Origin: Gracilibacter sp. BRH_c7a
GTDB lineage: Bacteria > Bacillota > Desulfitobacteriia > Desulfitobacteriales > Syntrophobotulaceae
Length of the DNA stretch: 64,000 nt
Assembly (NCBI GenBank): GCA_001516055.1
Contig: LOEZ01000040.1
Span: 62,001-126,000 of the forward strand
Reading direction: 5' to 3'
Shown here: one piece after another, positions 892-19,058 of the stretch
Layout: each line of letters begins with the position of its first letter
Position numbering within the stretch: position 1 is the first letter of the stretch
The notes under the pieces: model-generated
The model's input: only the letters and a program-made list of their open reading frames with translations
What the model was told of the DNA's origin: nothing
Databases searched by the model: none
Program-made: the position numbers and the translations under genes

Positions 892-2298
892 ATGACTATT
901 ATTGAATTCGTATTATATCTAATTTACGGTTTCGCCATGATTACTATGGGGATTTTTGCGATTTTGCAGAAGGATACGAAGATAATGAACTTATCTTTAA
1001 TTAAATCCTTGAAGTATTTAGGCCTTTTTGGGATTACTCACGGTATTAGTGAATGGATCTCTTTAGTTATTAAGCTTGAACTGTGTCATCCTTATTTTCA
1101 TCCGGAATTATATAACATCAATATTATTATTAAGGCCATTTCTTTTGCTTTTTTACTGCACTTTGGTTTAGATTTATTGCCTCTTAGAGACAAATACAAG
1201 AATATTGTGCTTAAAATTCCTATTCTCATCTTTGTTCTTTATCTGTCAGGATTCTTCCTGTTAATGGAAAACTATGGTGCTTATTATCATCTTACGAATC
1301 CTAAATATAACACGATTGCACTACGCTATTTGATGGGATTTCCAAGCTGTATAATATCTGCGATAGCTTTATACAATAATGCTCGGATAATCGAGAAAAC
1401 AAAATCGGTAAAAATATCAAGAAGATATAAGAATCTAAGCTGGGTTTTTATATTTTATGGATTGTTGGAAGGATTGCTTGTTACCAGAGCAAGCTACTTT
1501 CCTGCTAATATAATTAACAAAGAACTTTTTGTGGAGTACTTGAATTTCTCACCATTGTCTATAAAAGCATTTGTAGGATTTGCAATTAACTTATTATTAA
1601 TTAAGGTAATCGACACTTTTAGTTGGGAACAAGAAGAAAAGCTAAAGCAGTTGGAAGAACTAAGAATAGCCTCCAAAGAAAGAAGGAAGTTAGGACTGGA
1701 AATACATGATAGTATTATCCAAGGCTTATACGCTGCTGGATTGAAAATAGACTATTTATTAATGAACAAGGACGTAGATAAAAAAATAGATATTTTAGAT
1801 CAAATTAAAAGTGATTTAAACAATACGATTCAGAAAACTCGTCAATTTATCTCTACAACATCTATGGATAAAATCAAATTGGAGGATTTAAAATACAACC
1901 TAGAGCAATTAGTGAAGATGTTTAATGAAAATCAGAGTATAAGAATAAACCTCAATTGCGAAATTTACCCTTATATTAGAGGGCATTTATCACCAGATAC
2001 ATCCACCCAAATTTATTATATTATTCAGGAAGCTATTAGCAATGCTATCAAACATTCTGAAGCGGAGTATGTGAATGTTTTATTGGAAGGCAGATGTGAT
2101 TTTTTATATATCACTGTAACAGATAATGGAAAGGGCATTAGTCTAGAAGAATCAAATCCTCAAAAACAGTTTGGCGTTAGTTCGATGAAAGAAAGAACTG
2201 GACGAATAGGGGGGGCATTTGCTATTGGAAGAGTTACGAATGGCACCCGAATTGAGCTTAAGATTCCATGGGATGAAACGAAAAGTGAAGAATATTAA
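892..2298 (+). CDS. NarL-family sensor histidine kinase
   Basis: A membrane-bound kinase of the HisKA_3/DesK-NarX type. About seven hydrophobic segments fill residues 1-250, with no extracellular domain of known type, so the sensed signal is unknown. The phospho-acceptor motif is GLEIHDSIIQG (His272), the N box is EAISNAIKH and the G boxes are DNGKGI and FGVSSMKER. The start follows GGGAGGAG. Its natural partner is the LuxR/NarL response regulator at 5533, separated from it by the flavin lipoprotein genes. Both regulators are bracketed by the same repeats. Inferred role: control of the surrounding electron-transfer locus. Confidence 0.88.
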   Translation: MTIIEFVLYLIYGFAMITMGIFAILQKDTKIMNLSLIKSLKYLGLFGITHGISEWISLVIKLELCHPYFHPELYNINIIIKAISFAFLLHFGLDLLPLRDKYKNIVLKIPILIFVLYLSGFFLLMENYGAYYHLTNPKYNTIALRYLMGFPSCIISAIALYNNARIIEKTKSVKISRRYKNLSWVFIFYGLLEGLLVTRASYFPANIINKELFVEYLNFSPLSIKAFVGFAINLLLIKVIDTFSWEQEEKLKQLEELRIASKERRKLGLEIHDSIIQGLYAAGLKIDYLLMNKDVDKKIDILDQIKSDLNNTIQKTRQFISTTSMDKIKLEDLKYNLEQLVKMFNENQSIRINLNCEIYPYIRGHLSPDTSTQIYYIIQEAISNAIKHSEAEYVNVLLEGRCDFLYITVTDNGKGISLEESNPQKQFGVSSMKERTGRIGGAFAIGRVTNGTRIELKIPWDETKSEEY

Positions 2299-2376
2299 GA
2301 TGGATTAAGATCAAAAACTTAACTGAAACAGAGACGTTAAACTACTGCTATTAATTGGAAGGAAAAAAACAGATTA

Positions 2377-2492
2377 TAGGGACAAATGTACCTAGCGTTG
2401 GGACAAAAGTCAGAATATAAAAACCTCCCCTTCCATGTTAAATTAACAAGGGAGTACTTAATAGAACTATCACAAAGATGATAGTTAAGTAT
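2377..2492. repeat. Repeat element B1 downstream of the kinase, with dyad symmetry
   Basis: About 100 bases starting AGGGACAAATGTACC and continuing GGGACAAAAGTCAGAAT, then CTTCCATG-TAAATTAAC. The same blocks in the same order occur at 6173-6270 after the response regulator. The 3' part holds a dyad: ACTATCA (2466-2472), six-base loop, TGATAGT (2479-2485), flanked by ACTTAA and TTAAGT. It lies just upstream of the flavin lipoprotein gene and may contain its operator. Confidence 0.65.
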
Positions 2493-2504
2493 GGTCAGGA
2501 GAGT
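2493..2504 (+). promoter_or_regulatory. Shared motif GTCAGGAGAGT upstream of flavin lipoprotein
   Basis: GTCAGGAGAGT here recurs exactly at 7172-7182 upstream of the triple-motif small protein. Both lie in intergenic DNA ahead of predicted flavin-carrier genes. A shared regulatory site is inference; its distance to the start codon differs greatly (about 30 versus about 120 bases). Confidence 0.35.
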
Positions 2505-2533
2505 ATTTAAACAATTTGAGGGAGGATGTTTCA

Positions 2534-3760
2534 ATGTCTAAAAAATTTCTCGTAGTAGCACTCAGTCTCATGCTAATTCTTTCACTTGCAGGCTGTGGAT
2601 CTAACCAGCCAGTAGGTGCAGAAGAAGGTAAGTATGAAGACGGAATCTATTTTGCACAAGAAGATGGATTCTCTGATTCGGGTTGGAAATACGTTGTAAC
2701 AATCGAAGTTAAAGACGGAAAAATTGTTTCAGCGGATTGGAATGGTGCTAACAAAGCTGGGGGATCTGACAAAGATACCCTATCCGCATCAGGTAAATAT
2801 GGTCTCGTTGCAAAAGGTGGCGCCCAGGCTGAATGGCATGAGCAAGCTGCTAAAGCTGAAGCTTATTTGGTAGAAACCCAAGATCCAACAAAGATCACTT
2901 ATAAGGATGATGAAGGTCATACCGATGATATCGCTGGTGTCTCCATCCATGTAGTCGAATTCTTTGATCTTGCAGAAAAAGCCCTGGCAAATGGACCTGT
3001 TGGTAAAGGTCAATATAAAGATGGTGCTTATTATTCCGAACAAGATGCTTATACTAAAGACTATAAATATTCAGCTAGCCTAACGGTAATCAATGGTAAT
3101 ATCGTAGCTGCTGACTGGAACGGAGTAAACATCAACGGCGGCAAAGATAAAGATACTTTATCTGCCGATGGTGAATACCCAATCGTTGAAAATGGTGGAG
3201 CACAAGCTCCATGGCATGAGCAAGCTGAAAAGGCTGAAGCTTATCTCTTAGAAACCCAAGATCCTACAAAAATCAGTTACAAAGATGATGCAGGTCATAC
3301 TGATGACATCGCAGGTGTGTCTATCCATGTAATAGAGTTCTTCGAACAAGCCGAAAAGGCTCTTGCAAATGGCCCTATCGCTGAAGGTCCATATAAAGAT
3401 GGCTTCTACTATGCTCAACAAGACGCATTTGAAAAAGGCTTCAAATATATGGCGCATATTGCAGTTAAGAACGGTACAATTGTAGCCGTTGACTTCGATG
3501 GCATTGCAGAAGTAGATGGCGATCCTGATAAAGATACCCTATCCAAATCAGGTGAATATGGTCTGGTAGCTAAAGGTGGAGCTCAAGCTGAATGGCACGA
3601 ACAAGCTATGAAAGCTGAAGCATACCTGGTAGAAACTCAAGATCCAACTAAGATTACCTACAAGGATGATGAAGGTCATACCGATGACATCGCTGGTGTA
3701 TCCATCCATGTGGTTGAATTCTTTGATCTAGCACAGGAAGCTCTAAAAGACGCAAAATAA
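2534..3760 (+). CDS. Surface lipoprotein with three FMN-binding domains (PplA-like)
   Basis: Predicted extracellular electron carrier. A lipoprotein signal ends in LSLAGC (Cys21). Three near-identical domains of about 126 residues follow, each beginning Y-K/E-D-G and ending with a GHTDDIAGVS motif. By analogy with ApbE targets (D-x-x-S/A-G-A-T/S), the serines at 137, 263 and 390 are the candidate covalent FMN sites; serine replaces the usual threonine. The Listeria lipoprotein PplA, which passes electrons outside the cell, has two such domains; this one has three. ATG 2534 follows GGGAGGATG and is preferred over the TTG at 2516. A terminator follows, then apbE. Confidence 0.85.
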   Translation: MSKKFLVVALSLMLILSLAGCGSNQPVGAEEGKYEDGIYFAQEDGFSDSGWKYVVTIEVKDGKIVSADWNGANKAGGSDKDTLSASGKYGLVAKGGAQAEWHEQAAKAEAYLVETQDPTKITYKDDEGHTDDIAGVSIHVVEFFDLAEKALANGPVGKGQYKDGAYYSEQDAYTKDYKYSASLTVINGNIVAADWNGVNINGGKDKDTLSADGEYPIVENGGAQAPWHEQAEKAEAYLLETQDPTKISYKDDAGHTDDIAGVSIHVIEFFEQAEKALANGPIAEGPYKDGFYYAQQDAFEKGFKYMAHIAVKNGTIVAVDFDGIAEVDGDPDKDTLSKSGEYGLVAKGGAQAEWHEQAMKAEAYLVETQDPTKITYKDDEGHTDDIAGVSIHVVEFFDLAQEALKDAK

Positions 3761-3788
3761 TTTATGAATGTAAAATAACAGTAGAAAA

Positions 3789-3816
3789 AGAGGGTGCCAA
3801 GGGCACCCTCTTTTTT
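3789..3816 (+). terminator. Rho-independent terminator after flavin lipoprotein
   Basis: Stem GAGGGTGCC / GGCACCCTC with a three-base loop, followed by six or more T. It would separate or attenuate expression between the abundant lipoprotein and the downstream enzyme apbE. Confidence 0.9.
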
Positions 3817-3926
3817 ATAAGTTCATTTTGTATAACATTTATTAACATATATTTTTATAATTGCTATTGTAATAATTTATGGTAAAATGTTATTTGTCAT
3901 TCTATTTAGGAGGTTTTCATGAAGTT

Positions 3927-5009
3927 ATGTATGTAAAAAAAACATTAGCATTGATATATCTTGTTGTATTTTTACTACTCCCATCTTTTCTAACAGGGTG
4001 TACCTCCATAACAAAAGACCAGACAGAAGCTAAACCGGTCTCGGAGACAGCTTTTTTAATGGGTACTATAGCTAAAATAACAATTTACGATGAGATTGAA
4101 GATAAACAAATATTTCAGAAAGTTTTTGATCGAATTTCGGAAATTGAAGACAGAATGACCATTAATGAAGATAATCAAAAAAGTGAAGTTATGCAGCTGA
4201 ATAATTCTGCGGGACAAGCATACAGCAAGCTTAGCCAGGATACTTTCTTTGTCCTGGAGAAGGGGAAATATTATTCGGAAATTTCTAAAGGACAGTTTGA
4301 TATTACGATTGGTCCTCTCGTTAAGCTCTGGAATATTGGTACGGAGAAAGCAAGAGTGCCTAAAGAAACAGAAATTCAAAATACACTACCTTTAATAAGT
4401 TATGAAAACCTGCTCTTGGATAAGGAAAACCTCAGTGCCAAACTGAATAATTCTGGAATGATGGTCGACCTAGGTGGGATTGCTAAAGGTTATGCAGCTG
4501 ACGAAGCAGCTAAGATTTTAATCGAAGCAGGAATCCAGCACGCGATTATTAATCTAGGCGGGAATATACTCACACTCAATACAAAACCAGATGGTTCATA
4601 TTATAAGTTGGGATTACAGGATCCACTTGAACCAAGGGGTGACTATATGGGTATTGTGATGTTAAATAATCAGGCTCTTGTATCTTCAGGAACCTATGAA
4701 AGATATTTTGAATTAGAAGGGAAGAGATATCACCATATTTTAAACTCCAAAACAGGGTATCCAGAGGATAACACAATTATGAGTATCTCTATTATCACAA
4801 AGGAATCGATTGATGCCGATGCCCTCTCAACAACTATCTTTCTCTTGGGACTTGAAGAAGGTATGCAGATGATTGAAACTTTACCGAGTACCGAAGCAAT
4901 TTTTATAACTTCTGACAAAAAGGTTTATATTTCATCTGGAATAAATGATGAGAATTTTGAAATTGTTAAGGATGAATACCAATTACAAAAAGAAGTGGTG
5001 ACTCCATGA
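3927..5009 (+). CDS. apbE: FAD:protein FMN transferase (ApbE/FmnB), lipoprotein
   Basis: Transfers FMN from FAD onto Ser/Thr of exported proteins. A signal peptide ends in FLTGC, so it works at the outer membrane face. ApbE hallmarks: GTIAKITIY near the start, FDITIGPLVKLWNIG, the DLGGIAKGYAAD metal/FAD motif, INLGGNI, and the C-terminal HHILNSKTGYP and DADALSTTIF blocks. The start is placed at ATG 3927, 13 bases after AGGAGG. An out-of-frame ATG at 3919 reads only five codons. The next gene overlaps by four bases (ATGA). Likely substrates are the lipoprotein at 2534 and perhaps the 134-residue protein at 7301. Confidence 0.93.
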   Translation: MYVKKTLALIYLVVFLLLPSFLTGCTSITKDQTEAKPVSETAFLMGTIAKITIYDEIEDKQIFQKVFDRISEIEDRMTINEDNQKSEVMQLNNSAGQAYSKLSQDTFFVLEKGKYYSEISKGQFDITIGPLVKLWNIGTEKARVPKETEIQNTLPLISYENLLLDKENLSAKLNNSGMMVDLGGIAKGYAADEAAKILIEAGIQHAIINLGGNILTLNTKPDGSYYKLGLQDPLEPRGDYMGIVMLNNQALVSSGTYERYFELEGKRYHHILNSKTGYPEDNTIMSISIITKESIDADALSTTIFLLGLEEGMQMIETLPSTEAIFITSDKKVYISSGINDENFEIVKDEYQLQKEVVTP

Positions 5010-5392
5010 AAATTAAAAAAGGTGATCTTATCATACTAATTCTGGTGATTATAGTTGCTATAGGTTGGTTTCTCAAGGATATGATGTGGCCAGATTCCAT
5101 TAATGATAAGATAGCATTAATAAAAGTTGATAGTCAGATTCATAGTACAATACCCTTAGACGCAACAGCTGAGCGGAAAGAACTACATCTGGAACTTCCG
5201 GATAACAATCATATGCTGATAATAAGCGAAAAAGATAAAATCTGGGTTGAAGAGTCTTCCTGCCCAGATAAGGTGTGTGTCAAAACCGGTAAGATAAGTA
5301 ATCCAGGTCAGAGCATCGTCTGCCTTCCTAATAAAACAGTGGTATATATTGAAGGATCAGAAAAAACGGATATAGATGATGGTGCCTACTAA
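5006..5392 (+). CDS. NusG domain II protein (EetA-like)
   Basis: One N-terminal transmembrane helix (about residues 7-25), then a small extracellular beta domain with SCPDKVCVKTG and a third cysteine in IVCLPN, as in the NusG_II family (not the transcription factor NusG). In Firmicutes this family sits beside ApbE, FMN-binding lipoproteins and Gx proteins, and one member is the Listeria extracellular electron-transfer protein EetA as I recall. The ATGA overlap with apbE indicates translational coupling. Confidence 0.8.
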   Translation: MKIKKGDLIILILVIIVAIGWFLKDMMWPDSINDKIALIKVDSQIHSTIPLDATAERKELHLELPDNNHMLIISEKDKIWVEESSCPDKVCVKTGKISNPGQSIVCLPNKTVVYIEGSEKTDIDDGAY

Positions 5393-5425
5393 GTGAAAGA
5401 TAAAAGCGAGTTGCGAGAACGGTAG

Positions 5426-5465
5426 GGTGGCAAGGGGGTGGCAAGGGGACGTTTCGCTTGCCACC
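5426..5465. repeat. REP-like palindrome A2 upstream of the response regulator
   Basis: A partial GGTGGCAAGG copy at 5426 is followed by a full palindrome at 5437-5465, GGTGGCAA...TTGCCACC, with the core GGGGACGTTTCG. The core is the reverse complement of the core of element A1 (CGAAACGTCCCC). Confidence 0.7.
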
Positions 5466-5532
5466 AATGAATGATAGTTGGGAATACGGTAGGGAGTTGA
5501 GTTTATAATAACAAAGGGAGGGTGAAGGAGAA

Positions 5533-6174
5533 GTGAAGAATAGAATCAAAGTATTAATCGTTGATGATCATAATATAGTCAGAGATGGATTAAGGCTAAT
5601 ATTAGAATTAGATGATCGGATAGAAGTATGCGGTGAAGCTAAAGGTCTCCAAGAAGCCATGGATATAATCCCTGAAGCTCAACCTGATGTTATTTTACTC
5701 GACTTTAAGCTTCCTGATGGAGACGGAGTAAATGGGTGTATTTGTATTAAAAGCCGATTTCCAAAAGTAAAAATTATTATTTTAACAGCGTATTCCCAAG
5801 ATCATTTAGTAATGGAAACTATTAGAGCAGGAGCCAGTGGATATTTACTGAAAAATATTAAAAGTGATGAGCTAATTAAGAACATATTTAAGGTTTATGA
5901 AGGAGATTCTGTGTTAGATGCCTCTGTTACAGAGGGTGTTTTTAATAATATTATTGAAAGGCAAAAGGCTGATATAGATAGTACATTAAGCTGCAGAGAA
6001 ACATATATCTTACAAATGGTAAGCCTAGGTAAATCCAATAAAGAGATTGCCGAAGCCTTGGCAATCTCCGAAAAAACAGTTCGAAACTATATTAGTAATA
6101 TTTTTAAGAAATTAAATGTTTCTAATAGAACAGAGGCAGCTAGTTATTGGATCAGAAAAAAAACCCTGACTTAG
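5533..6174 (+). CDS. LuxR/NarL-family response regulator
   Basis: Receiver domain (residues 5-120) with VDDHNIVRDG, phospho-acceptor Asp57 in LLDFKLPDGDG and conserved T/K positions (ILTAY, LLKNI). The C-terminal LuxR helix-turn-helix (about 148-205) contains SCRETYILQM and NKEIAEALAISEKTVRNYISNIFKKL. The start is GTG 5533 after GGAGGGTGAAGGAG. Probable partner of the kinase at 892. It interrupts the predicted apbE / NusG-II / Gx order and is flanked by the same A and B repeats as the kinase. Confidence 0.93.
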   Translation: MKNRIKVLIVDDHNIVRDGLRLILELDDRIEVCGEAKGLQEAMDIIPEAQPDVILLDFKLPDGDGVNGCICIKSRFPKVKIIILTAYSQDHLVMETIRAGASGYLLKNIKSDELIKNIFKVYEGDSVLDASVTEGVFNNIIERQKADIDSTLSCRETYILQMVSLGKSNKEIAEALAISEKTVRNYISNIFKKLNVSNRTEAASYWIRKKTLT

Positions 6175-6287
6175 GGACAAATGTACCTGCTGTTGGGGAC
6201 AAAAGTCAGAATTTAAAAATTTTGCCTTCCATGATAAATTAACTAGTGAGTACTAAAACAAACAATCACATAGAGAGGAAAATTGTG
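6173..6287. repeat. Repeat element B2 downstream of the response regulator
   Basis: Starts at the stop codon with AGGGACAAATGTACC, then GGGGACAAAAGTCAGAAT and CTTCCATGATAAATTAAC, and ends in GAGTACT...AATCACA. It matches B1 at 2377-2472 in block order with scattered mismatches. It is not coding. Confidence 0.7.
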
Positions 6288-6333
6288 TTAAAGTAAATTG
6301 GATATAATATTTAACATTAACCCATGGTACTAG

Positions 6334-6379
6334 AGGGTATCCCGAAAGATAAATTAAATAAACTTTGGGATACCCTTAT
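6334..6379 (+). terminator. Hairpin between response regulator and Gx gene
   Basis: AGGGTATCCCGAAAG pairs with CTTTGGGATACCCTT across a 14-base AT-rich loop, followed by a short T-rich stretch. A terminator of the regulator or an attenuator for the downstream gene. The rest of 6175-6519 (345 bases) holds repeat B2 and no convincing reading frame. Confidence 0.55.
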
Positions 6380-6519
6380 TTATCCGAGCATTCTTAGTTT
6401 ATCCAATAGTAATAGTAATGGATAATAAAAAAGCGGTTAAACTTATAAAGAAGGCTGATCGGATGAATAAGTGAAGAAGAATAATTAATAAGCCTCAAGG
6501 CGAAAAAACGGGTATAAGT

Positions 6520-7038
6520 ATGGATAAAAATAAAAGATATGCAATCATTATAATACTGGTTACCAACGCTATTCTAATATCCTTATTAGAATCAATAATT
6601 CCAATACCTGTTCCGGTTCCGGGAGTGAAACTGGGGTTAGCAAACATAGTTACATTAATTGCCATTATTTTTCTGCCTCTAAAAGATGTACTTCTTATTG
6701 TTGTAATTCGCTCTTTTGTCGTAGCGTTATTGACCAGAGGAATAATGATGCTTGCCTTTAGTCTCAGTGGAGGTATCATCAGTGCCTTAGTCATGGCATT
6801 GCTATATAAGAAATTCTCTGGGTCTTTCAGTATAAAAGGGATTAGCATTGTAGGGGCGATATTTCATAATACGATACAGATTACTGTGGCATCTTTCTTA
6901 TTAGGTGAAATTGTTATCCTTTATTATCTTCCAATTCTTTTAGTATCAGCAGTAATTACGGGCTTCATCACAGGAAGTATTGGAGAAATCGCCATCAATG
7001 AAATAAAGAAGAAGGGGGTTTTCAATGATAATAGGTGA
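6520..7038 (+). CDS. Gx transporter family membrane protein (EetB-like)
   Basis: A 172-residue membrane protein with about five helices and the family pattern PVPVPGVKLGLANIVTL. The family is often annotated heptaprenyl diphosphate synthase component I, but it is a membrane protein that co-occurs with NusG-II, ApbE and FMN-binding proteins; one member is Listeria EetB as I recall. The ribosome site is weak (GGGTATAAGT before ATG). Inferred role: part of the flavin or quinone branch of extracellular electron transfer. Confidence 0.75.
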   Translation: MDKNKRYAIIIILVTNAILISLLESIIPIPVPVPGVKLGLANIVTLIAIIFLPLKDVLLIVVIRSFVVALLTRGIMMLAFSLSGGIISALVMALLYKKFSGSFSIKGISIVGAIFHNTIQITVASFLLGEIVILYYLPILLVSAVITGFITGSIGEIAINEIKKKGVFNDNR

Positions 7039-7171
7039 TAGAGCAGCAAAATAGGTACTTCCAAAAGGGAAGAGAACTAAGTAAAAAGAACATAGATAGA
7101 ACATAGACAAATAATTAGATTACTTGGCTTTATCCATGTAAGTCCCTTTAAGTACATGACGATCTATATGA

Positions 7172-7182
7172 GTCAGGAGAGT
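7172..7182 (+). promoter_or_regulatory. Shared motif GTCAGGAGAGT upstream of triple-motif protein
   Basis: Exact copy of the 11 bases at 2494-2504. It lies in the 262-base gap between the Gx gene and the 134-residue protein. Nothing else in that gap is recognisable. Confidence 0.35.
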
Positions 7183-7300
7183 CTTACTATTTTCAACAGA
7201 CACTTTCGATTGTATAGACTTATCTAAGATATGGGGAGCTTTCCTTGGAGAAAGATTGTAATAATTTTAATATCTATTAGGAGAGGAGAAATCTTATCAA

Positions 7301-7705
7301 ATGAGAAAAATCGGACAAGTACACCACAGTTTGACACTTCTAACTTTTATTGCTGTACTTACTCTTGGGATGTTGATGTATTTACCAAATGGGCTTACTG
7401 CAGCAGCTACCGATGAATTAGCTGGGGCTTCAGTAGTTCCTGGCGAATCAGCTGGAACTACTGAACCTGCTACCGATGAATTAGCTGGAGCTTCAGCAGC
7501 TCCCGGCGAAGCAGCTGGAACTTCGGAAGCAGCACCTGATGAATTAGCCGGAGCCTCAGCGTCTTTCGAGCCTCTGGAGCATTATGAACCATTACCTGTT
7601 GAACCCATTCATCAGGAAGCTAACAATGTTTTATTGGGTAGCGGTCTTGGTGTTGCAGTACTGTTCATCGGCGGGTCAATTGTAATGGATAGACGCAAAA
7701 AATAA
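7301..7705 (+). CDS. Small exported protein with three ApbE-like motifs
   Basis: Not a family I recognise. A signal peptide (to about Ala36) is followed by three 21-residue repeats, each with DELAGAS at 38-44, 59-65 and 80-86, exactly 21 residues apart. Then comes a proline/glutamate linker, one transmembrane helix (about 110-127) and the basic tail DRRKK, giving an outside-facing anchored stalk. DELAGAS fits the ApbE flavinylation pattern D-x-x-S/A-G-A-T/S, with Ser44, Ser65 and Ser86 as acceptors. It sits between an apbE-containing cluster and NrfCD. Inference: a multi-FMN carrier without a folded FMN-binding domain. The alternative is a simple repetitive surface linker. Confidence 0.6.
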   Translation: MRKIGQVHHSLTLLTFIAVLTLGMLMYLPNGLTAAATDELAGASVVPGESAGTTEPATDELAGASAAPGEAAGTSEAAPDELAGASASFEPLEHYEPLPVEPIHQEANNVLLGSGLGVAVLFIGGSIVMDRRKK

Positions 7706-7797
7706 GCATATGAAAACTCAGATAGGGTATAACCACATCTGAGTCATGAATATTGTTTCTAATGACCAAAAAGAAAAGGAAGGAGACTAGTGTAATA

Positions 7798-8457
7798 GTG
7801 GAAAGTTCAAAAAGTACGTTGATTAGCCGCCGAAAGGTTATTAAAATAGGTGCCATGGCATCTGCAGCTCTGGCTCTGGGAATTTTTCCAGGGAGAGTGG
7901 TCAAAGCAGCTGCCGCTCCAAATGCACCGAAAAACCCCAAACAGATGGGCTTTATTTATGATCAGGGAAAGTGTGTTGCTTGCCGAGTATGTCAGGCAGC
8001 GTGTAAAGATGCTAATAACTGGGAAGAAGGTACCGAGTGGAGACGGGTATATATAGGAGAGAAGACAGGGGATTTCTTATCTATAAGTTGTAATCACTGT
8101 GATAACCCGGCTTGTGCGACAGTATGTCCAGTTAGGGCCTATACAAAGCGAGATAAGGACGGTATTGTCATCCAAGACCGAGAAAAGTGTGTTGGCTGCA
8201 AATATTGCATGTATGCTTGTCCCTACCATGCCCCCCAATTCAGTGATGACACGGGTAGAATCAGTAAATGCCATTTCTGTTTTGAAAGACAGGATAACGG
8301 AGAAAAACCTGCGTGTGCAGAGCGTTGTCCTACCGGAGCTTTAAGTTATGGGGAACTTTCTAAATTGCAACAAACTCAGGGTGTAGTAACTCGAATTGAC
8401 GGACTTCCAAGTGCTGAATTAACAAGACCATCTTGGGTGATTATTCCGAAAGCATAG
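7798..8457 (+). CDS. NrfC/PsrB-type four-cluster ferredoxin with Tat signal
   Basis: Electron-transfer subunit carrying up to four [4Fe-4S] clusters. The Tat motif is SRRKVIK (Arg11-Arg12), followed by a hydrophobic stretch and a likely AAA cleavage region. Cysteine groups: CVACRVCQAAC, CNHCDNPACATVC, CVGCKYCMYAC and CHFCFERQ...CAERC. GTG 7798 gives a compact twin-arginine peptide; an upstream TTG (7753) would add 15 residues. The next gene encodes the NrfD membrane partner. No molybdopterin or haem catalytic subunit is present, so electrons probably pass to or from another exported carrier such as the product of 7301. Confidence 0.87.
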   Translation: MESSKSTLISRRKVIKIGAMASAALALGIFPGRVVKAAAAPNAPKNPKQMGFIYDQGKCVACRVCQAACKDANNWEEGTEWRRVYIGEKTGDFLSISCNHCDNPACATVCPVRAYTKRDKDGIVIQDREKCVGCKYCMYACPYHAPQFSDDTGRISKCHFCFERQDNGEKPACAERCPTGALSYGELSKLQQTQGVVTRIDGLPSAELTRPSWVIIPKA

Positions 8458-8538
8458 ATCGCTCTTTAAAATCTACTAGTTCATCCGTGTACGTCGAGAC
8501 ATTAGGCCACCATGGCCGTCAGAGGAGGTATTTTTAAG

Positions 8539-9480
8539 ATGCATTGGCATTGGTTAATAGTTATCTACTTATTTCTTGGAGGACTTGGAGCAGGAGCATA
8601 TCTCACTTCCTTCGCAGCAGAAAAAGGTTGGCTAGGAAAAGACTCTAGCCTTAGCAGAGCAGGATACTTTATTGCAGCACCTGTTGTAGCTTTTGGTACC
8701 GTATTACTGGTCTTTGATCTTGGACAGGGTTTGCATAAACCTTGGTTACTAATAAGACTTCTTTCAAACTTTAGTTCTGTTATGACTTGGGGAGTATATA
8801 TTTTATCCGCTTTCATAATGGTTGGACTTCTCAAAGGTTATTTCGCATTCATTAAGAAATCTGCACCTAAGCTATTGTCTTGGGCAGGAGCAATATTAGC
8901 CTTAGCAACTGGTGCTTATACTGGTCTCCTGCTGTCGGTTGTCGAAGCAGTTCCTTTCTGGAACTCAGGACTTATGCCTGTTCTTTTCGTTACATCCGCC
9001 TTGTCAACAGGTTTGTCAGTTACTTCACTTCTCGCCCCTTGGTTAGAAAAAGGTAATTTCAAGGAAGGACGCGAGGGAGAAGCACATATTTATCTAATTG
9101 GGGCCGAGCTGATAATTGTAGCTATCTTTTTCGGGATGATGAACTCAGGTGTTTATGGAGCGGTAGGACAGGAGTCTGCAGAGTTGCTCATTTCAGGTGT
9201 CTATGCTCTGATATTCTGGGGCTACTTTATCGGGTTAGGTCTTCTATTCCCATTAGTGGTATTTATGATTCCATATCTCCGTTCCAAACAGGCTGTTAAG
9301 CAGCTTGCAAAAGGACCTTCGGTAGCTGAAAGAGAAGTTGCTGCAACCGTACAAAAAGAACATCATAATTCTTATCTTACAATAGCAACTGATATCTCAG
9401 TTATAATTGGAGGATTTGCTCTTAGAGCAATAATTATCCTTGCTGCCCTACCTATCTGGGATGGAATTACGATTCCATAA
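8539..9480 (+). CDS. nrfD: NrfD/PsrC-type quinol-interacting membrane protein
   Basis: About eight transmembrane helices over 313 residues, with the opening MHWHWLIVIYLFLGGLGAGAY typical of NrfD/PsrC. These proteins exchange electrons between (mena)quinol and a periplasm-facing ferredoxin subunit. The start at ATG 8539 follows AGAGGAGG; an upstream in-frame ATG (8512) lacks such a site. It pairs with the ferredoxin gene just upstream. A terminator follows. Confidence 0.88.
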   Translation: MHWHWLIVIYLFLGGLGAGAYLTSFAAEKGWLGKDSSLSRAGYFIAAPVVAFGTVLLVFDLGQGLHKPWLLIRLLSNFSSVMTWGVYILSAFIMVGLLKGYFAFIKKSAPKLLSWAGAILALATGAYTGLLLSVVEAVPFWNSGLMPVLFVTSALSTGLSVTSLLAPWLEKGNFKEGREGEAHIYLIGAELIIVAIFFGMMNSGVYGAVGQESAELLISGVYALIFWGYFIGLGLLFPLVVFMIPYLRSKQAVKQLAKGPSVAEREVAATVQKEHHNSYLTIATDISVIIGGFALRAIIILAALPIWDGITIP

Positions 9481-15784: not shown

Positions 15785-16471
15785 ATGGAAAGCAAGAAGA
15801 GACCTGCAAGAAAAAGGAGAAACCAGGTGCCGATTGCTCTAGGGTTACTGCTTTTAATCATTATTGCGGGAATAATGCTTGCAGGAGTCAATTCTATGTT
15901 GGCAATCTATTGGATTTTCGGAATAAGCTTTGGGATTGTTCTGCAAAAATCCAGATTTTGTTTTACTGCATCTCTAAGAGATCCAGTTTTGACAGGAAGC
16001 ACTACACTTACAAGGGCAGTTCTTATAGCATTTATGGTTGCTACGGTAGGTTTCGGAGCTATCCAGTTTAAAGCTTTACTATCCGGAGTTGCCGGAGTAC
16101 CCGGAAATATATTCCCAGTAGGTCTTCATACCGCTATCGGTGCCATAATGTTCGGGATAGGAATGGTTATAGCAGGCGGATGTGCTTCTGGAACGCTGAT
16201 GCGTGTAGGCGAAGGCTTCATGCAACAATGGATTGCAATTGTATTTTTCGTTGTTGGTTCTGTTTGGGCCGCAAGAGATTTTGGTTGGTGGTCTGTCAAT
16301 GTGATAATGCCCACTAGTATTAGTGATGGAGTCACCAAAGGGTTCCATTTACCAACAGCGTTTGGATGGGGGTTTGCCTTCTTTGGTCAACTCATTATCC
16401 TAGCAGCAATCTTTCTCTTTGCAGACTGGTATGAAAAGAAAAAATTAAATAAAGTACCGCTTGAGAATTAA
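15785..16471 (+). CDS. YeeE/YedE-type sulfur permease, first half-protein
   Basis: A 228-residue membrane protein with about six helices. Two conserved cysteines sit in family motifs: Cys59 (QKSRFCFTASLRDP) and Cys133 (AGGCASGTLMRVGEG). YeeE/YedE (TsuA) proteins move thiosulfate or a related sulfur species through the membrane by way of cysteine relays. The single-chain form is about 350 residues; here the function seems split between this gene and 16749, with tusA in between. Ribosome site AAAGGAGG. It heads a sulfur-trafficking operon. Confidence 0.87.
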   Translation: MESKKRPARKRRNQVPIALGLLLLIIIAGIMLAGVNSMLAIYWIFGISFGIVLQKSRFCFTASLRDPVLTGSTTLTRAVLIAFMVATVGFGAIQFKALLSGVAGVPGNIFPVGLHTAIGAIMFGIGMVIAGGCASGTLMRVGEGFMQQWIAIVFFVVGSVWAARDFGWWSVNVIMPTSISDGVTKGFHLPTAFGWGFAFFGQLIILAAIFLFADWYEKKKLNKVPLEN

Positions 16472-16484
16472 AGGAGGAATAACA

Positions 16485-16712
16485 ATGGCTGAATATAAGT
16501 TAGATTGTTTTGGAGAAGCGTGTCCACTACCTTTGGTGAAAACTCAAAAAAAGATGGAAACTATGAATGTCGGAGATGTGATTGTTGTGGAGATAGATCA
16601 TAGTTGTGCCATGAAAAATATACCTGACTGGGCTAGAGCCGCCGGTCATAATGTCGATATCGAAGAAATCAACGATGGTGAGTGGGAAGTTATCATTGAA
16701 AAGACCAAATAA
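16485..16712 (+). CDS. tusA: TusA-family sulfur carrier
   Basis: A 76-residue SirA/TusA protein with the persulfide-carrying CPxP motif EACPLPLVKTQ (Cys13). It receives sulfur from the neighbouring permease or a sulfurtransferase in the cytoplasm. ATG 16485 follows AAAGGAGG; the longer frame from 16461 overlaps the previous gene and lacks a ribosome site. Confidence 0.93.
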   Translation: MAEYKLDCFGEACPLPLVKTQKKMETMNVGDVIVVEIDHSCAMKNIPDWARAAGHNVDIEEINDGEWEVIIEKTK

Positions 16713-16748
16713 ATCATAAGAAGGATTAAAGTGAATTGAGGTGATAGC

Positions 16749-17291
16749 TTGAAGATCAGTAATCATCCTTTATACAAGACAATTATTAAAGATGCTTGGA
16801 GTTACACCACTGGGGCAGTATTATTAGCGTTATTAAATATTTCTATGTTCGCTGTAGGTGGGAGTCCCTGGGGCATCACGACTGCGTTTTCTAATTGGGG
16901 TTCCTGGGTTTTCCGGTCATTAGGTGGTGAGCCAGAGAAGTGGGCATTCTACGCTGCTAATAAAGGAAATTTTAATGCCTTAATGGAGACAAGTTTTTTT
17001 ACTAACACACAATCCCTTCAGAACATCGGAATAATATTCGGTGCTTTATTAGCTACCTTGTTTGCCTCTCAATTTAAGGTTAAAAAAATTAAATCTTGGA
17101 GGCAAGTTCTGGCAGCTGTATTAGGTGGACTCTTAATGGGCTATGGAGCTAGACTATCTTTTGGTTGTAACATCGGAGCTTTCTTCAGTGGGATTGGGTC
17201 ATTTTCTCTCCATGGTTGGGTATTTGGAATTTTTCTTTTGTTAGGAGCTTGGATAGGAAGTAAGCTACTGGTCAGATTCTTTATGACTTAA
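16749..17291 (+). CDS. YeeE/YedE-type sulfur permease, second half-protein
   Basis: A 180-residue membrane protein. The family motif GYGARLSFGCNIGAFFSG places Cys140 in the sulfur path. It complements the half-protein at 15785. The start is TTG after GAGGTGATAGC. A strong terminator at 17304 follows, so the downstream reductase has its own transcript or depends on read-through. Confidence 0.87.
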   Translation: MKISNHPLYKTIIKDAWSYTTGAVLLALLNISMFAVGGSPWGITTAFSNWGSWVFRSLGGEPEKWAFYAANKGNFNALMETSFFTNTQSLQNIGIIFGALLATLFASQFKVKKIKSWRQVLAAVLGGLLMGYGARLSFGCNIGAFFSGIGSFSLHGWVFGIFLLLGAWIGSKLLVRFFMT

Positions 17292-17303
17292 GTTTTCCCC
17301 TCT

Positions 17304-17346
17304 CCTTCTTCCCTCAAATCTGGGATTGAGGGAAGAAGGTTTTAAT
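17304..17346 (+). terminator. Strong terminator inside the sulfur cluster
   Basis: Stem CCTTCTTCCCTCAA / TTGAGGGAAGAAGG, perfectly paired, loop of about eight bases, then TTTTAAT. Confidence 0.92.
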
Positions 17347-17424
17347 ATAGTTCTTTATTTCTTGCTAAGTAATTCAGAAAGATAAAGGTTATAAGAGCCT
17401 TGATTTAATAGAGGAGGTAAATAA

Positions 17425-18657
17425 GTGGAAAAGAAAAAAGAGTATTATGATGTAGTGATTATCGGGGGAGGCCCCGCTGGAATGGCTGCTGCCACCTACT
17501 GTGGAAGAGCAAGACTGAAAACCATGCTGATTGAAAAGGCTCTCCTGGGAGGACTAGCTACCTATACAAGCGAGATCGAGAACTATCCCGGTTTCCCTGA
17601 ACCTATAGGTGGAACTGATTTAATGAAGTATTTTGATAAGCAATGTCGACGTTTTAATGTAGATATTAAACTTACGGAAGTCAAAGGCATACGAATGGAA
17701 TGCGACTATAGAGTTGTATCAACTTTTAGAGTTGATTACTATGCCAAAGCTGTGGTTATCGCAACCGGCGGCAAACCAAGGTTAACAGGAGCCAAGAATG
17801 AGGACAAGTTTTTATTCGATAAAGGGATTTCTTTCTGTGCTACTTGTGATGCTGCTTATTATACAGATAAGACGGTTTTAATAGTGGGCAGCGGTGATGC
17901 AGCCATTGAAGAAGGGATGTTCCTTACTAAATTTGCCAAGAAAGTTTATGTCTCCGTTATTCATGATGAAGGGATAATGGATGCTAATAAAGTAGCCCAA
18001 GAAAAAGCATTGATTAACAAGAAGATGGAATTCATTTGGAATACCGTAGTGGATTCCTACGAAGGGGAAGAACGCTTAAATAAAATTGTACTCAAGAATT
18101 TAAAGACCGGTGAATTACTTCCCTTTGATGTTGACGGTTGTTTTCTCTTCATCGGATATGTTCCTAATACAGAGCATTTTAAAGGGCTGATAGATATGAC
18201 GTCTAAAGGCTATATCACTACCAATGAAGAAATGGAAACAAATGTAGAAGGAGTATTTGCTGCAGGGGATGTTCGTGATAAATTCTTAAGACAAGTAGCC
18301 ACTGCAGTTGGGGATGCAGCTACTGCCGGTGTAATGGCAGAAAAATATGTGGAAGAAGTAAACTATCTTCAGGAAGAGATACTAGGAGCCAAGGGTTTAG
18401 TGGCTTTATACATTTACAATGCTATCGAAGCGTTAGATAGAGAATGCTTGACGAAGGTTGAACAGATAAATCGTGATATGAATAATGCATTTAAACTCTG
18501 TAGAATGGATATTTATAAATCGGATAAAATGGCTTGTCGCTTTGAGTGTGATAAAACACCATGTCTTGTATTAGTTAATAAGGGTGAAGTTATTCATCGC
18601 GAATATGACCTGGCTCAGGCTAAAATTGAAATCGAAAAAGCTTTAAAAAACGCCTAA
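17425..18657 (+). CDS. Thioredoxin reductase-like flavoprotein with C-terminal thioredoxin-like domain
   Basis: Residues 1-320 are a full thioredoxin-reductase fold: FAD motif GGGPAGMAAATYCGRAR, redox pair C138-A-T-C141, NAD(P) motif VGSGDAAIEEG and the C-terminal FAD motif GVFAAGDVRD. About 90 extra residues follow, with a thioredoxin-like order of strands and helices (GLVALYIYNA... then TPCLVLVNKGEVIHREY). The usual CxxC active site is not seen there; cysteines occur in CRFECDKTPC instead. Probably moves electrons to a thiol or persulfide partner of the adjacent TusA/YeeE system. Start GTG after GAGGAGG. Confidence 0.85.
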   Translation: MEKKKEYYDVVIIGGGPAGMAAATYCGRARLKTMLIEKALLGGLATYTSEIENYPGFPEPIGGTDLMKYFDKQCRRFNVDIKLTEVKGIRMECDYRVVSTFRVDYYAKAVVIATGGKPRLTGAKNEDKFLFDKGISFCATCDAAYYTDKTVLIVGSGDAAIEEGMFLTKFAKKVYVSVIHDEGIMDANKVAQEKALINKKMEFIWNTVVDSYEGEERLNKIVLKNLKTGELLPFDVDGCFLFIGYVPNTEHFKGLIDMTSKGYITTNEEMETNVEGVFAAGDVRDKFLRQVATAVGDAATAGVMAEKYVEEVNYLQEEILGAKGLVALYIYNAIEALDRECLTKVEQINRDMNNAFKLCRMDIYKSDKMACRFECDKTPCLVLVNKGEVIHREYDLAQAKIEIEKALKNA

Positions 18658-18681
18658 ATGCGAAAAGGCGTACACTTAGTG

Positions 18682-18713
18682 AAAATAGCACTTACGTAAG
18701 AAGTGCTATTTTT
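18682..18713 (+). terminator. Terminator after thioredoxin reductase fusion
   Basis: Stem AAAATAGCACTT / AAGTGCTATTTTT around ACGTAAG. Confidence 0.85.
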
Positions 18714-18827
18714 ACTAAAAATATTGAAACCAAAAAAATATGGCAAAAGGATTGTTTGAGCTTGTGTATTATAGTACATTTGAGATATTAACTGAAATAG
18801 GTGACTTCTGAGAAAGGAGTTAAATCT

Positions 18828-19058
18828 ATGATTTGTCAGAAACTTGATTGCAGGTATGATGCCTGCCCAATTCCTCTTTTGAAAGCCTCCCAAGCCCTGG
18901 AGAAACTTTCTGCTGGTGATATTCTGGAGATCAACACCGGTTATATGTGTGCTGCAGAGAACATCATTCAATGGGCTGAGAAGCACGAAGTCGGTTACTG
19001 GATGGAAGAGGACGAAGAAACAGGGGAACTGACCGTATTTTTAAAGAAGCGGGAGTAG
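18828..19058 (+). CDS. Second TusA-family sulfur carrier
   Basis: A 76-residue protein with the motif DACPIPLLKAS (Cys13), typical of TusA/YedF/SirA. ATG 18828 follows GAAAGGAG and is preferred over the GTG at 18801. It differs clearly from the copy at 16485, so it may serve a different donor or acceptor. Confidence 0.9.
   Translation: MICQKLDCRYDACPIPLLKASQALEKLSAGDILEINTGYMCAAENIIQWAEKHEVGYWMEEDEETGELTVFLKKRE

Follow-up and report, generated by a model that had tools for sequence, protein, structure and literature searches.

We propose that a 134-residue protein encoded in Gracilibacter sp. BRH_c7a is a disordered, membrane-tethered FMN carrier that would receive electrons from menaquinol through NrfCD and hand them to a PplA-like multi-flavin lipoprotein. 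We give this reading a probability of roughly two in three. What could be established for the carrier is its architecture, the conservation of its motifs and operon, a prediction of disorder, and the occurrence of similarly built heme proteins at sister NrfCD loci; its flavinylation, redox role, partners, direction of electron flow and final acceptor are inferred, without biochemical evidence. The features discussed below are listed in Table 1, with positions in the window, i.e. the whole 64,000-nucleotide stretch of DNA that was analyzed.

Table 1 Features of the carrier and its gene cluster in the window, and carrier homologues in other genomes.
Feature	Position	Strand	Basis or remark
Sensor histidine kinase	892..2298	+	conserved beside the cluster in L007 and L013
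PplA-like lipoprotein, three FMN-bind-like repeats each with DDIAGVS	2516..3760	+	NF041941 61.7 bits, under cut-off of 325
ApbE/FmnB-type FAD:protein FMN transferase lipoprotein	3879..5009	+	PF02424 2.6e-87
NusG_II-domain membrane protein adjoining apbE	5006..5392	+	PF07009 2.4e-27
LuxR-type response regulator	5533..6174	+	cluster gene
EetB-family (PF07456) protein, probable FAD-exporting ECF-S component	6520..7038	+	PF07456 2.3e-43
Proposed FMN carrier, 134 aa	7301..7705	+	ATG start; signal peptide, predicted-disordered linker with three ApbE motifs, C-terminal TM
Signal peptide, residues ~1-34	7301..7402	+	hydropathy, AlphaFold2 helix; AAA cleavage-like end inferred by eye
ApbE-type motif 1, DELAGAS, predicted FMN-Ser44	7412..7432	+	sequence pattern
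Motif-like half-unit GESAGTT, between motifs 1 and 2	7442..7462	+	sequence; without D and GA[ST]
ApbE-type motif 2, DELAGAS, predicted FMN-Ser65	7475..7495	+	sequence pattern
Motif-like half-unit GEAAGTS, between motifs 2 and 3	7505..7525	+	sequence; without D and GA[ST]
ApbE-type motif 3, DELAGAS, predicted FMN-Ser86, membrane-proximal	7538..7558	+	sequence pattern
YEPLPVEPIHQEANN, membrane-proximal segment of FMN-type carriers	7583..7627	+	alignment; Y95, P97, L98, P99, P102, N108 invariant
C-terminal TM helix and MDRRKK cytoplasmic tail	7613..7702	+	hydropathy; AlphaFold2 helix 105-133
NrfC-like 4Fe-4S protein, Tat signal ISRRKVIKIGA	7753..8457	+	PF13247 2e-28
NrfD-like quinol-interacting membrane subunit	8512..9480	+	PF03916 3.2e-33
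Homologue, Gracilibacter LH_M27 (congener), L002/L007			1 motif
Homologue, Peptococcaceae AS04akNAM_59, L013 (protein identical to G009, L003)			4 motifs, three with D shifted by one
Homologue, G021, L004/L041			1 motif
Homologue, Bacillus B15-48, L008			2 motifs
Homologue, Robertmurraya, L009			2 motifs
Homologue, Bacillales UBA6259, L016			1 motif

By hydropathy, the only hydrophobic segments of the carrier are residues ~7-32 (the signal peptide, ending in GLTAAA) and ~109-130 (the TM helix). Between them DELAGAS starts at residues 38, 59 and 80, which places the predicted acceptor serines at 44, 65 and 86; the preliminary description, in which three copies lay exactly 21 residues apart between a signal peptide and a C-terminal anchor, was thus exact. 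The protein conforms to the ApbE-substrate pattern D-x-x-[S/T/A]-G-A-[S/T] on an exported protein, with Ala at position 4, and, lacking CxxCH, it does not qualify as a c-type cytochrome. The same description had claimed that there is no folded FMN-binding domain, and this is supported by two results. No Pfam or NCBIfam family matched the carrier at E<=0.1, and its AlphaFold2 model contains helices at residues 3-27 and 105-133 only, with pLDDT below 50 over residues 31-89, the stretch that includes all three motifs; on the same grounds it cannot be assigned to FMN_bind (PF04205). The alignment supplied to AlphaFold2 was shallow, with seven members, so the low pLDDT fits a disordered linker without proving disorder.

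Motifs 1 and 2 are part of a 21-residue repeat whose copies are identical at 51 of 63 nucleotides, whereas the third copy consists of the 7-residue motif alone, followed by unrelated sequence. Pairwise comparison of the three copies gave 1, 3 and 2 synonymous and no nonsynonymous differences within the motif, whereas the 14 linker codons between copies show 6, 14 and 13 nonsynonymous differences. When the linker of the window carrier was shuffled, at least one canonical motif appeared in ~1% of cases and three motifs in at most 1 of 20,000 (<=5e-5). The chance of at least one motif was 0.2-1.2% per linker; these P values were not multiplied across homologues, because the homologues are related. 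A codon-level search of the whole 4.1-Mb genome gave 28 matches to the motif pattern, three of them within the carrier ORF, versus 12 for a reversed control, and is too loose for listing substrates. The half-units GESAGTT and GEAAGTS are, judging by their sequence, probably decayed or non-functional motifs.

A segment of the form YxPLPxEP(I/V), directly N-terminal of the TM helix (7583-7627), is strongly conserved and occurs in FMN-type carriers only. A docking or flavin-stacking role for it is possible but inferred. Tyr95 sits 9 residues past Ser86 (6-10 in the homologues), and it could stack on the last flavin, although this is speculation. Sortase anchoring, considered for the LP-x-EP before the TM helix, was rejected by eye: the T and G of LPxTG are missing, and heme-type proteins have no such segment.

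We searched for homologues among relatives and in a collection of 84,980 genomes, by way of NrfC, and found the carrier in six other genomes (seven including the window's), spanning the window's own class and the Bacilli. Every homologue retains at least one ApbE-type motif of the membrane-proximal (motif 3) kind. The GAS core is kept in all 14 motif copies, encoded by varied codons (GGG/GGA/GGT, GCT/GCC/GCA/GCG and TCA/TCG/TCC/TCT), and the Asp lies at -6 in 11 copies and at -5 in the remaining 3, which are three of the four copies of the AS04akNAM_59 protein. The number of motifs ranges from 1 to 4, with spacings of 10, 17, 21 or irregular, and the alignment outside the motifs shows an unconserved linker, followed by the conserved Y-x-PLP-x-x-P and TM anchor. 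Because GAS is invariant while linker length and copy number vary, selection appears to keep the tag and not the repeat length. The check on D, G, A and S that the preliminary description had proposed therefore came out in its favor, with the motif core kept, but three motifs at an exact spacing of 21 proved to be a local feature. A phylum-wide profile search of 399 genomes returned no additional members, and a search of 194 genomes of the Bacillus homologue's family returned only two carriers that were already known, indicating that the carrier family is narrow; the small size of the homologue set (seven genomes) is a weakness of the proposal.

The gene neighborhood, whose conservation had likewise been put forward as a check, is kept throughout this range from the window's class to the Bacilli. 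In tblastn comparisons the carrier gene lies between apbE and the PplA-like gene (upstream) and nrfC-nrfD (directly downstream) in 7 of 7 genomes, with apbE within ~3.5 kb upstream in each. Genes for NusG_II and PF07456 proteins are present in 5 of the 7 clusters and were not seen in the stretches examined from G021 (L004) and UBA6259 (L016); we take the NusG_II gene of the window to occupy the position of EetA. The NrfC/NrfD pair of the window does not reach the NCBIfam equivalog cut-offs, so it is not nitrite reductase NrfCD proper. The cognate PplA-like lipoprotein bears a tag, DDIAGVS, related to that of the carrier, and this motif is also seen in its homologues. The only ApbE of the window genome is the copy in this cluster; other FMN_bind proteins are encoded elsewhere in the genome, so ApbE presumably serves those proteins too. 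Two further observations were made by eye in the window: a REP-associated (Y1-type) transposase-like ORF upstream of the cluster at the window start (28-726), and a row of ORFs for two YeeE/YedE-like membrane proteins, two TusA-like proteins and one thioredoxin-reductase-like protein (15785-19058), probably a sulfur-transfer cluster.

In the mechanism that we propose, the EetB-family exporter would deliver the FAD substrate to the outside, where the neighboring ApbE would attach FMN covalently to every D-x-x-A-G-A-S tag at its serine. NrfD would oxidize menaquinol, and electrons would pass through the 4Fe-4S clusters of the Tat-exported NrfC, the presumed direct donor of the carrier, to the flavins borne by the flexible stalk. 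These would swing or hop toward the three flavins of the PplA-like lipoprotein, from which electrons would reach an extracellular acceptor. A single tag would be sufficient, and extra tags (two more in the window carrier) would provide additional flavins or capacity. The canonical ApbE motif prefers S/T at position 4 and Thr as the acceptor, whereas the carrier tags mostly have Ala at position 4 and Ser as the acceptor, which counts against the proposal, as does the shifted Asp in three of the four L013 copies, and a free-swinging flavin may be poorly tuned for electron transfer. With ApbE, Ser acceptors are reported to be 10-55% less efficient than Thr, and the minimal motif comprises 7 residues, receives FMN on the last one and works as a tag at protein termini (PMC12052999). 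An unstructured C-terminal extension is flavinylated in Lactococcus FMN_red proteins (PMC11334425). EetB (PF07456) is a flavin-export ECF-S subunit that in Listeria is needed for FAD export to ApbE and for PplA flavinylation (PMC9973259), and quinone interaction of NrfD-like subunits is described in PMC8076601.

The window genome contains five close NrfCD copies, on contigs C19, C40, C56 (two) and C67. Each adjoins a different redox partner: the FMN carrier, a mono-heme carrier, a hexaheme cytochrome, a molybdoenzyme and a multiheme region. At one C56 locus, a mono-CxxCH protein with a signal peptide, a Pro/Glu-rich stalk and a C-terminal TM helix is encoded beside a flavoprotein reductase gene; the second C56 locus encodes the hexaheme cytochrome together with ResB/CcsA-type genes, the C67 locus has a CcsA/ResB neighborhood, and the C19 locus has a molybdopterin oxidoreductase. 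The mono-heme design recurs in LH_M27 (L006/L010) and in G006 (L005/L012), and hexa- and diheme cytochromes fill the NrfCD slot at L011 and L014. Heme-type partners of NrfCD are thus present in the window genome, in its congener and in other members of the family. Mono-heme counterparts upstream of NrfCD (L024:8109-8579, L010:5552-5902 and L012:5185-5661) have EPAEPTEP repeats in the stalk and no region the size of a cytochrome domain.

No apbE was present at the heme-type NrfCD loci within the stretches examined, and the heme-type proteins in the same slot contain no FMN motif. FMN-type and mono-heme proteins share weak similarity, mostly in the end helices (E 1e-6 to 1e-14, tblastn without low-complexity filter), which makes shared ancestry likely without proving it. 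One short anchored protein of the congener (L002/L007:5611-5976) carries CIECH, a CxxCH motif, followed by one DELAGAS, and is apparently an intermediate or possibly a two-cofactor, heme-plus-flavin form. Homologues of ResB, which serves heme attachment, occur in 7 of 8 genomes checked and were not seen in UBA6259, whose carrier is FMN-only. The NrfC tree is unresolved at its base, does not unite the FMN rows in one clade (3 changes) and groups only the three Bacilli firmly, hence it does not show the order of the heme-to-FMN change. The heme proteins of the same build strengthen the electron-carrier reading and suggest that the cofactor of the NrfCD partner is interchangeable. We lean slightly toward a natural class of foldless carriers, built from a signal peptide, a disordered stalk and a TM helix, in which evolution swaps FMN tags, a single heme c or both and so wires NrfCD to different acceptors. 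If this is true, the class would define a branch of flavin-based extracellular electron transfer that is driven by NrfCD.

The carrier could also be flavinylated without being an obligatory relay, acting as a sensor, a flavin reservoir or an assembly factor, e.g. one that keeps NrfC or ApbE close to the membrane. Such a scaffold would be consistent with the membrane tether and the conserved YEPLPxEPI segment, and the cluster includes a two-component system; its members are, however, an ordinary histidine kinase and response regulator without an evident link to the carrier, and the like-built heme proteins together with the CxxCH+DELAGAS hybrid point to a redox job, as both cofactors carry electrons, so that we consider this role unlikely. 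Electron flow might instead be inward, from an extracellular donor through the PplA-like lipoprotein and the carrier to NrfCD and the menaquinone pool. NrfD-type modules run both ways in known complexes, Qrc being one that reduces menaquinone (PMC13059093), but the set of PplA-, ApbE- and EetB-like genes matches the electron-exporting, reductive system of Listeria (PMC9973259) and the cluster shows no oxidase for a donor, making inward flow rather improbable. Very doubtful is the possibility that the tags stay unmodified and DELAGAS is a low-complexity Ala/Gly/Ser linker repeat of a structural stalk that merely resembles the ApbE motif: the linker is indeed rich in Ala, Gly and Glu, copies 1 and 2 stem from a recent 63-bp duplication and non-motif half-units adjoin the motifs, but the motif is retained in seven genomes, rarely arises by shuffling, is spared, in the window's copies, the nonsynonymous changes seen around it and is strictly linked to apbE, while same-build heme proteins away from apbE lack it.

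The usual view is that a flavin or heme carrier requires a folded protein that holds and tunes the cofactor. A natural carrier reduced to tags on a flexible tether would show that attaching the cofactor can be enough by itself; it would be a candidate for the link from the quinol pool to surface flavoproteins in the extracellular respiration of Gram-positive bacteria, and as a very small part it lends itself to engineered electron wiring. The exchange of FMN and heme in a single slot makes a direct test feasible. The carrier system would be a variant of flavin-based electron transfer, since the enzyme, the tag and the partners all belong to known kinds. Surveys of flavinylation cover RNF, NQR, Nos, EET, Pce, NapH-like, MsrQ-like, PepSY, DsbD and NQR/RNF-like systems, without any mention of NrfD (PMC8238504, PMC11334425), and we found nothing relevant in open-access papers on NrfD with ApbE or flavinylation. 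The known multi-flavin proteins are made up of folded FMN_bind domains in a row. To judge from the open-access literature, neither a multi-FMN carrier without a fold nor a flavin system linked to NrfCD has therefore been described; the minimal mono-heme anchored protein looks undescribed too.

Among known systems, the window cluster shares PplA-like, ApbE, PF07456 and NusG_II genes with Listeria-type flavin-based EET (PplA, FmnB/ApbE, EetA/EetB, FmnA, Ndh2). In the latter, electrons enter through Ndh2, whereas the window cluster has NrfCD as the input with a dedicated foldless anchored carrier in between, and neither Ndh2 nor FmnA is found among the ORFs at 892-9480. Multi-flavinylated FMN_bind proteins, like the window carrier, have several extracytosolic ApbE sites per protein; they have been described as beads on a string with up to 13 sites and proposed as analogues of multiheme cytochromes (PMC8238504, PMC11334425, PMC10339131). 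They hold one FMN per domain of ~120-160 residues, whereas the carrier has 7-residue tags in a disordered linker of ~60 residues. The Lactococcus FMN_red proteins (PMC11334425) resemble it in bearing tags, one to two, on an unstructured segment, and their flavinylation has been shown, but in these the tag docks close to the flavin site of the folded FMN_red domain, whereas the window carrier has no folded domain. The engineered flavin-tag (Tong et al., reviewed in PMC12052999), for which seven residues suffice at the termini, is artificial, whereas the tag here would be natural and repeated. Finally, the window shares with quinol modules of the NrfCD and PsrBC type an NrfC-NrfD pair with a Tat signal, immediately preceded by the gene of a redox partner; those modules have soluble cytochromes as partners, whereas the partner in the window bears FMN tags instead of hemes.
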